Part shown: one piece after another, positions 61,311 to 63,098 of the stretch
Numbering within the stretch: the first letter of the stretch is position 1
Layout: each line of letters opens with the position of its first letter
DNA from: an uncultured Alphaproteobacteria bacterium
Lineage (GTDB): Bacteria; Pseudomonadota; Alphaproteobacteria; Rs-D84
Reading direction: 5' to 3'
DNA length: 64,000 bases
Assembly (NCBI GenBank): GCA_949878575.1
Contig: CATLAX010000001.1
Span: 1 to 64,000 of the forward strand
The notes under the pieces: generated by a model
The model's input: only the letters and a program-made list of their open reading frames with translations
Databases searched by the model: none
What the model was told of the DNA's origin: nothing
Position numbers and translations under genes: made by a program

Positions 61311-63098
61311 TTATTTTGCCGTGTGATGCAGCAGGCTTTGCACCGCCAAAGGAAAATCAGACGCCCGCGCCAGGTATGAACCGGACACCAGCGCATCGGC
61401 GCCGGCCGCCCAGCATGCGGGGGCTGTTTTATCGTTGATGCCGCCGTCAACCGTGATTTTAAAGTGCAGGTCGTATTTTTTTCGCGTGGCGGCCAGTACG
61501 GCGATTTTCTTTAACGCGGCGGGGTCAAACGACTGGCCGGCGGCGCCCGGGGCGACGGACATTACCATAACCTCGTCCAGGTCGCGCAAAACAGGTTTTA
61601 AAATGGCGACAGATGAATCCGGATGCAGCGCCACGCCGGCCCGCCGGCCCGCGGCCTTTATTTCACGGATTGCGGCCCGCACGCCGGATGTGTTCGTTGA
61701 CACGATTACCGTGTCCGCCCCGGCCGCTATTGCATCCGCCGCCCAGACGGACGGGCTTTCCGTCATTAAATGCACATGCAGATGGGATTGCGTGTGCGCG
61801 CGGATTTGTTTTAATTCTTTTATCCCGCCCGCAATGCGGTCAACATAAAAACCGTCCATTATGTCCACGTGAATCATGGATATGCCGCCGGATTTGAACA
61901 GCTCGTACGTTTCGTCGCGGCGCATGTCAAAACACAGGGTGCTGGGCATTATCGGGATAAAGCGCGCGGCGCGGCGCCGCGGGCGTGCGCCTATGCGCAA
62001 TATGCGCCGCATCCATGCGCCGCGGCGCGCCCATTTTTCCTGGCGTGCGCGTGCGGCGGCGATACGCGGGGCCTCTGCGTTCCAGACGTGCGCGGCCAGT
62101 GCGCGCGCCGCCGCGTCATATGGCAGTTTTTTTACCGGAATTGAAAAAGCGTTTTCAAAAAATGTCGCCGCGCCGTCCATTTCCGCCCCGCCGCCGGACA
62201 GTATTATTTTTACAGGTCTGTATTTTGCAATCGCCGCGGCGGCCGCGTCCTTTATCAGGGCCGCCACCTCCACCATGCGCGGCAGAACGATTTCGTTTAT
62301 GTCCGCGCGCGAGAAATCGTATGCGGCCTCGGCCGGGGTGAAACGGTCCATTTCCTGGGGAATCAAAGATGCGACGGCGCGCTTTATCCGGTCGGCCGAA
62401 TCAAAGTCTATGCCCGTTTTGTTCGCGATGTCGCGGCTGATTTTAGCACCGCCAACAGGAAATTTTTTATACATTACCGGGCCGCGGTCCGTCCATATTG
62501 ACGCCGTGGTGAATTCCGCCCCCAAATCAATGAACATTGTGTTTTCGTGCGGCCGCCGGGTGCGGGCGTTTAACAAAAACTGCGGATCAAAAAAGCCGTT
62601 GGCCTGAATGTGCGCGCGCCGCATCGCCGCCGTGATTTTGTCCATTTCGTCGCTGCGGACAAATATCGCGCCGAACGCCGATGTTAATGCGCGGTCCGTC
62701 TGGCCTACGGGCGACAATATGTTGCGTGCGCCCGGGGTGTCGTATCGCAGTGGGATTATGTGAATGGGAAAAAAGCCGTCCGGCGGTGTTATCTGGCCTA
62801 TCTGGGTGCGCACATCCGTCGCCGTTATTTTGTGCTCGGCGCCCCACGTGGTGCTTTTCGCCGTCATCTCAAACATGGCCGGACCAAAATCGCCCGTTAC
62901 ATACGCCGTGTCAAAATGTGCACCTATCTGGCGTTCCAGTTCGTCTATGACGGATTTTAGCGCGTATACGGTATCGCGGCTGTCCATGGAAAATACGGCC
63001 GATTTGTCAATTCGCGCGCTGCGCACGCGGTGCGCGCATCCGCGCACGCCGGACGCGCCGATATCCAGACACAAAAAAGATGAATCAAACAGGTTCAT
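61311..63098 (-). CDS. FtsA-ribulose-phosphate 3-epimerase fusion protein
   Basis: N-terminal FtsA/actin-like (LCLDIGASGVRG, FIDLGAEFTTASIW, IILSGGGAEMDG) and C-terminal RPE (MPSTLCFDM, IHVDIMDGFYV, VHLM, TVDGGIND) in one ORF. Confidence 0.85.
   Translation of the reverse strand: MNLFDSSFLCLDIGASGVRGCAHRVRSARIDKSAVFSMDSRDTVYALKSVIDELERQIGAHFDTAYVTGDFGPAMFEMTAKSTTWGAEHKITATDVRTQIGQITPPDGFFPIHIIPLRYDTPGARNILSPVGQTDRALTSAFGAIFVRSDEMDKITAAMRRAHIQANGFFDPQFLLNARTRRPHENTMFIDLGAEFTTASIWTDRGPVMYKKFPVGGAKISRDIANKTGIDFDSADRIKRAVASLIPQEMDRFTPAEAAYDFSRADINEIVLPRMVEVAALIKDAAAAAIAKYRPVKIILSGGGAEMDGAATFFENAFSIPVKKLPYDAAARALAAHVWNAEAPRIAAARARQEKWARRGAWMRRILRIGARPRRRAARFIPIMPSTLCFDMRRDETYELFKSGGISMIHVDIMDGFYVDRIAGGIKELKQIRAHTQSHLHVHLMTESPSVWAADAIAAGADTVIVSTNTSGVRAAIREIKAAGRRAGVALHPDSSVAILKPVLRDLDEVMVMSVAPGAAGQSFDPAALKKIAVLAATRKKYDLHFKITVDGGINDKTAPACWAAGADALVSGSYLARASDFPLAVQSLLHHTAK

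Follow-up and report, generated by a model that had tools for sequence, protein, structure and literature searches.

A ribulose-phosphate 3-epimerase fused to an FtsA homologue in an alphaproteobacterial family without FtsZ

FtsA is usually regarded as the membrane anchor of FtsZ. Why, then, is an FtsA-like protein encoded in one reading frame with an enzyme of central metabolism, in a bacterium in which FtsZ is not found? This question is raised by a minus-strand gene at positions 61311-63098 of the window, the 64,000-nucleotide stretch analyzed here (contig CATLAX010000001.1, positions 1 to 64,000, assembly GCA_949878575.1), which joins FtsA to ribulose-phosphate 3-epimerase (RPE). The source organism is a member of Candidatus Enterousia, a lineage of the alphaproteobacterial order Rs-D84. 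Comparison with its relatives indicates that the fusion is real and old. The answer considered probable here is that loss of a gene junction created a bifunctional protein bound to the membrane, whose FtsA half does its work in the absence of FtsZ and whose other half is the RPE of the cell. The component families are known; the setting in which they are fused is biologically surprising.

The gene is one frame of 595 amino acids (aa) with no internal stops, as an earlier note on this DNA had claimed, and the same full-length frame recurs in well over 100 independent genomes at 32-80% identity. The parts of the gene and its upstream neighbor are as follows (pLDDT, predicted local distance difference test).

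61311..63098, minus strand: ftsA::rpe fusion gene, 595 aa (open reading frame call, Pfam and relatives)
62076..63098, minus strand: FtsA actin-fold domain, residues 1-341; actin ATP-site motifs D12/G14, D191/G193 and G302-G304 conserved
61995..62072, minus strand: basic amphipathic helix, residues 343-368; in alignment, matches the membrane-targeting helix at the C-terminus of FtsA in the sister families
61956..61994, minus strand: flexible basic linker, residues 369-381; pLDDT below 50 at residues 371-373
61311..61955, minus strand: RPE TIM-barrel domain, residues 382-595; H410, D412, H443 and D551 invariant
61947..61949, minus strand: ATG at residue 384, the possible internal start of the earlier note; lacks conservation
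63105..63785, minus strand: ftsQ, directly upstream on the same strand; POTRA and FtsQ_DivIB_C domains

The two domains named in the earlier note are borne out by Pfam, by alignment to Escherichia coli FtsA and by Foldseek. The Pfam FtsA model matches residues 189-323 at 41.6 bits, above its cut-off, and TIGR01174 (ftsA) covers residues 25-323 at 73 bits, short of its equivalog cut-off of 175.85; on these sequence scores, the N-terminal half is an FtsA homologue and not an FtsA equivalog by the NCBI standard. The alignment to E. coli FtsA spans 332 aa (tblastn, 2e-7). An AlphaFold2 model of the fusion, built on 99 family sequences, has a mean pLDDT of 93.5 and a predicted template modeling (pTM) score of 0.65, the latter leaving the relative orientation of the two halves undefined. 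When the fold was compared with the PDB by Foldseek, the first 15 matches were all FtsA (1e4g, E value 7.5e-23; 7q6i, TM score 0.76). PilM, the actin-like protein of type IV pili, shares a related actin-like fold and a weak Pfam match, but it fits less well (TM 0.53-0.56 versus 0.67-0.76 for FtsA), and the neighboring gene is ftsQ rather than a pil gene. Among the 99 sequences, G302 is invariant and D12, G14, D191, G193, G303 and G304 are at least 90% conserved, so that the phosphate 1, phosphate 2 and adenosine motifs of the ATP site are present; they also align with those of E. coli FtsA. Between close relatives, the ratio of nonsynonymous to synonymous substitution rates (dN/dS) in this half is 0.04-0.09, which points to strong purifying selection. 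A useless half would not be expected to persist under such selection in such small genomes, implying that the FtsA half is needed. Whether FtsZ loss has left a decayed FtsZ-binding pocket was considered. The positions corresponding to R300 and E303 of E. coli FtsA vary in the fused family and also in FtsZ-bearing sister families, and no inference was drawn from them.

The C-terminal half has the features of a working enzyme. Ribul_P_3_epim (PF00834) matches residues 383-576 at 153.5 bits over profile positions 2-197 of 198. The half reaches the cut-off of the NF004076 subfamily (175.1 versus 165) and scores 159.3 against a cut-off of 212.6 for TIGR01163 (rpe). Its best structural counterpart is 2fli (TM 0.91, 37-38% identity). 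The catalytic and metal motifs that the earlier note saw as kept are indeed so, H410, D412, H443 and D551 being invariant in the 99 sequences, and dN/dS is 0.04-0.10 between close relatives, again pointing to strong purifying selection. A separate rpe had been suggested as a thing to look for; the genome of the window (G000; 945 kb, two contigs, 94.6% complete) contains none, the fusion being its sole RPE. It likewise encodes a single FtsA: the other PF14450 match, at C2:400071, was considered as a second candidate and is MreB. Enterousia are reported to encode the larger part of the non-oxidative pentose phosphate pathway, lacking transaldolase (PMC12306168). An extra free-standing RPE-like gene of 220-240 aa, with 32-35% identity, is present in six Enterousia genomes (G062, G063, G081, G089, G111 and G137).

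The proposal in the earlier note that an internal ATG yields free RPE did not hold up. Of 111 sequences, 60 have ATG at the codon of residue 384 and 22 have TTA, which is not a start codon; a Shine-Dalgarno-like motif goes with this codon in a single one of the 111. Separate production of RPE from an internal start thus appears unlikely, since neither element is conserved.

In the AlphaFold2 model, the two domains are joined by a single helix (residues 343-368) followed by a short basic linker that is disordered. The mean best hydrophobic moment of the helix is 0.73 (100 sequences), and the helix aligns with the terminal helix of FtsA in sister families, in keeping with the FtsA-type amphipathic helix that had been claimed to lie between the domains. 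By this alignment, what was formerly the membrane-targeting C-terminus would now be internal. The linker is less constrained than the domains (dN/dS up to 0.35; identity 0.41). In genus g6 (L139, L140, L254 and L257), the FtsA core passes almost directly into RPE.

How the fusion arose is suggested by the other families of Rs-D84, in which ftsA and rpe are separate genes lying close together on the same strand. The order is ftsQ-ftsA-rpe in family f3, ftsA-rpe in f5 and f6, and ftsQ-ftsA-ABC transporter-rpe in f2. In f5 and f6, the stop codon of ftsA overlaps the start codon of rpe (TAATG) right after an FtsA-type helix (e.g., YLNKVKNWIKEHL followed by the stop). A tree of concatenated FtsA and RPE sequences unites the fused proteins in a single clade (support 0.98), whose nearest relatives are f5 and f6. 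Because this junction occurs in the two closest families, its loss accounts for the fusion, and the simplest history is loss of the ftsA/rpe stop/start junction in the ancestor of the family. Separately, in a genome of f2 (G191), RPE ends an 874-aa open frame beside ftsA (L245:7046-9670, minus strand), perhaps another fusion, to the gene beside it; Pfam detects RPE alone in this frame.

The fusion is a property of the whole family. Within the genus it was found in 136 of 141 genomes (96 of the 97 of good quality); the lone good-quality genome without a match, G105, is 95% complete in 40 contigs, and an assembly gap is the probable reason. By the terms of the earlier note, a junction interrupted by a stop codon, or relatives in which the two genes are only ever separate, would speak against a fusion. 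Within the GTDB family neither turned up, a single frame being present in 177 of 184 genomes, in 114 of 115 good-quality ones and in all 14 genera. The most divergent, basal genera g6 and g11 also have one fused frame behind ftsQ, and ftsQ stays immediately upstream across the family. Apparent split genes in about 15 relatives proved to be single open frames, the in-frame stop being the terminal stop codon. A search of 242 genomes of the class recovered the fusion in three members of the family and in none of the other 239; in class genomes outside the family, the best RPE matches fall outside any FtsA match. In a scan of genome records, the same protein turned up in gut metagenome assemblies, several labeled Candidatus Enterousia. 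A database of 5.8 billion proteins contains 768 matching proteins. Among the 120 matches listed, both Pfam domains are present, nearly all are 588-596 aa long, and the few that carry a name are annotated as ribulose-phosphate 3-epimerase or as hypothetical protein. Since public annotation names only the epimerase, the FtsA half has been overlooked. The published account of Enterousia as a lineage of Rs-D84 with reduced genomes does not mention an FtsA-RPE fusion or FtsZ (PMC12306168), and no report of either the fusion or FtsZ loss in Rs-D84/Enterousia was found in the open-licence literature.

The earlier note had remarked that ftsZ does not follow the fusion gene; it is absent there and was found nowhere else in the genome of the window. 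TIGR00065 has no match in that genome, in any of the 141 genomes of the genus or in any of the 184 of the family, including G079, a single contig of 1.0 Mb that is 99% complete. A profile made from the FtsZ proteins of the order itself found nothing better than an E value of 0.0146 in 175 family genomes. In the genome of the window, phmmer, hmmsearch --max and tblastn did not find FtsZ, and the glycine-box pattern is absent in all six frames; the G000 stretches contain no N, so masking is not the reason. A merely divergent FtsZ was rejected on the strength of the general and order-specific profiles together with the direct and glycine-box searches. In sister families, TIGR00065 matches 18 of 18 genomes, 17 of them strongly; among class genomes at least 90% complete it matches 283 of 290, three of the seven without FtsZ being members of the fused family, and FtsZ is present in about 99% of other Alphaproteobacteria. 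On these searches, ftsZ is lost in the fused family, and the N-terminal half can be called an FtsA homologue but, judged from the gene content, not an FtsZ anchor, since the family encodes no FtsZ. The fusion and the loss map to the same stem; each is one event, and any causal link between them is hypothetical. Elsewhere, the only FtsZ match of G197 (f4, L119) scores 31 bits in a 422-aa open frame that lacks both the glycine box and a Pfam tubulin domain, which may be a second, independent FtsZ decay. G380 and G455 (family f96, genus g184), single-contig alphaproteobacterial genomes of 1.5 Mb and 99% completeness, also gave no FtsZ match, with masking possible.

What would remain for FtsA to work with? 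The gap between ftsQ and the fusion gene is 6 bp, in agreement with the earlier note, which had placed ftsQ just upstream. The genome of the window keeps FtsQ, FtsW-like and FtsI-like proteins, FtsK, RodA, PBP2, MreB and MreC, and also MraY, MurG, LpxC, TolB, Pal and a ParA-type ATPase, while FtsL, MurC, MurD, MurE, MurF, MinC and MinE were not found in it. MurC-F are thus missing though MraY, MurG, FtsW, FtsI, RodA, PBP2 and MreB are kept, and the supply of peptidoglycan precursors is unexplained. Genera g6, g13 and g14 of the family have up to four Mur-ligase genes, yet the fusion is present and FtsZ absent, which indicates that the fusion and FtsZ loss preceded the loss of Mur ligases. The reverse order, in which the cell wall was lost first and FtsZ afterwards, finds no support in these genera. 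Directly downstream of the fusion, at 60778-61245 on the minus strand, lies a gene for a lipoprotein-like coiled-coil protein of 155 aa, which matched no known family. No FtsY- or Ffh-like GTPase was found in the genome of the window (phmmer and tblastn with E. coli FtsY; G-box motif scan), so that the signal recognition particle pathway may truly be lost, or the assembly may be incomplete.

These observations are consistent with the following model. The FtsA half, retaining its actin fold and ATP-site motifs, would sit on the membrane by its amphipathic helix and act in the absence of FtsZ. Most likely it would recruit or activate what is left of the envelope synthesis machinery (FtsQ, FtsW, FtsI and FtsK), alongside which MreB, RodA and PBP2 are present. 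FtsA of E. coli has been described as acting on FtsW in a way that does not depend on its role as an anchor (Park et al. 2021, as cited in PMC10591338). The RPE half, whose invariant active-site residues suggest competence, would be the ribulose-5-phosphate/xylulose-5-phosphate epimerase of the cell and, to judge from the helix, would be held to the membrane on its inner side. The fusion would be locked in because the cell needs both halves and there is no internal start from which they could be produced apart. RPE may in addition cluster FtsA or sense metabolism. As for the link between the divisome and pentose phosphate metabolism put forward in the earlier note, the covalent fusion stands and the usual divisome does not, the lineage being without FtsZ; the link would be to an FtsZ-less division or envelope apparatus. 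Several points weigh against this model. The FtsA half is strongly diverged, as its Pfam and TIGR01174 scores indicate, is shortened in places relative to E. coli FtsA, and may have left division. No FtsL, FtsB or FtsN was identified, most Enterousia lack Mur ligases (PF08245 absent), and the helix is absent in genus g6, so that membrane binding is not universal. All of the relatives are metagenome assemblies, and the case rests on these and on sequence comparison.

Nearly even odds attach to a frozen accident, in which a small indel fused two neighbors that keep their old functions, and the roleless link persists because re-splitting would need a new start codon and ribosome-binding site. Such a fusion comes easily from abutting TAATG genes like those of the closest families, and the weakly constrained linker is in line with an accident; this reading leaves the retention of FtsA without FtsZ unexplained, and no reversal is seen among 184 genomes.

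Bacterial RPEs form oligomers. The link could therefore be functional, RPE oligomers clustering or cross-linking FtsA as a partial substitute for the FtsZ ring, or sensing pentose phosphate flux and gating division; this is a less likely explanation. The shared stem of fusion and FtsZ loss and the absence of reversion in 14 genera are in its favor, as are the many copies in the closest RPE structures (2fli, 12 chains) and the precedent of metabolic enzymes that regulate the cell cycle in Caulobacter (PMC7083601). With one event each, however, the shared stem is a coincidence without statistical weight, and the invariant active site indicates that, whatever else it may do, the domain serves as an ordinary enzyme. 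Both this explanation and the frozen accident are compatible with the core statement of a junction-loss fusion whose FtsA half works without FtsZ. A stronger version, in which FtsA::RPE has replaced FtsZ, is more doubtful still; here FtsA filaments on the membrane, held in clusters by RPE oligomers and perhaps adjusted by pentose phosphate substrate, would form the division scaffold of a large lineage dividing without FtsZ.

It is improbable that the FtsA half has given up its part in division and merely anchors or stabilizes RPE. The lack of FtsZ in the family and the divergence of this half would fit, but an anchor needs neither a conserved ATP site nor a full actin fold under the selection described above, ftsQ remains directly upstream throughout the family, and a helix alone would do, yet g6 lost the helix and kept the FtsA fold. 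An artefact, whether a sequencing error that joined two genes or incomplete genomes that hid FtsZ, can practically be dismissed: the genome of the window is an incomplete metagenome assembly, but the identical frame layout recurs in the many relatives, and the search that misses FtsZ in 184 of 184 family genomes, one of them a single contig, finds it in nearly all genomes of the class.

The retention of FtsA under strong selection in an FtsZ-less family of at least 184 sequenced species points to a valuable FtsZ-independent role of FtsA, which work in E. coli, on FtsA and FtsW/FtsN, has merely suggested. It also adds a large gut-associated group of Alphaproteobacteria to the short list of FtsZ-less bacteria. 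Because Rs-D84 contains both FtsZ-bearing and FtsZ-less families, it offers a natural before/after comparison, and the covalent tie to an enzyme of central metabolism makes a connection between division and metabolism directly testable.

Known FtsZ-less bacteria comprise Chlamydiota, Planctomycetota, some Mollicutes and tiny endosymbionts, including the alphaproteobacterial Hodgkinia (PMC4164004). Like them, the fused family has no ftsZ, and like Chlamydia it retains MreB together with part of the septal synthesis gene set. In the PVC group, ftsA has generally been lost along with ftsZ (PMC12283558), whereas here it is kept throughout and fused; no report of a lineage keeping FtsA throughout without FtsZ was found in the open-licence literature. 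Metabolic enzymes such as citrate synthase, KidO and GdhZ act on the cell cycle in Caulobacter. There, too, an enzyme of central metabolism bears on control of the cell cycle or of division, but those enzymes are separate proteins, whereas the link here is covalent and any regulatory role hypothetical. With Rpe enzymes such as that of Streptococcus pyogenes (2fli), the C-terminal half shares the TIM barrel and all metal and catalytic residues; it differs in being fused behind FtsA and in being probably membrane-tethered rather than a free soluble enzyme. The FtsA half, finally, shares with the known FtsA proteins of E. coli, Thermotoga maritima and Vibrio maritimus the actin fold, the ATP-site motifs, the place after ftsQ and the amphipathic helix, and differs from them in its low sequence score and shortened loops, in the absence of FtsZ, and in that its helix is internal and followed by an appended enzyme of 214 aa.
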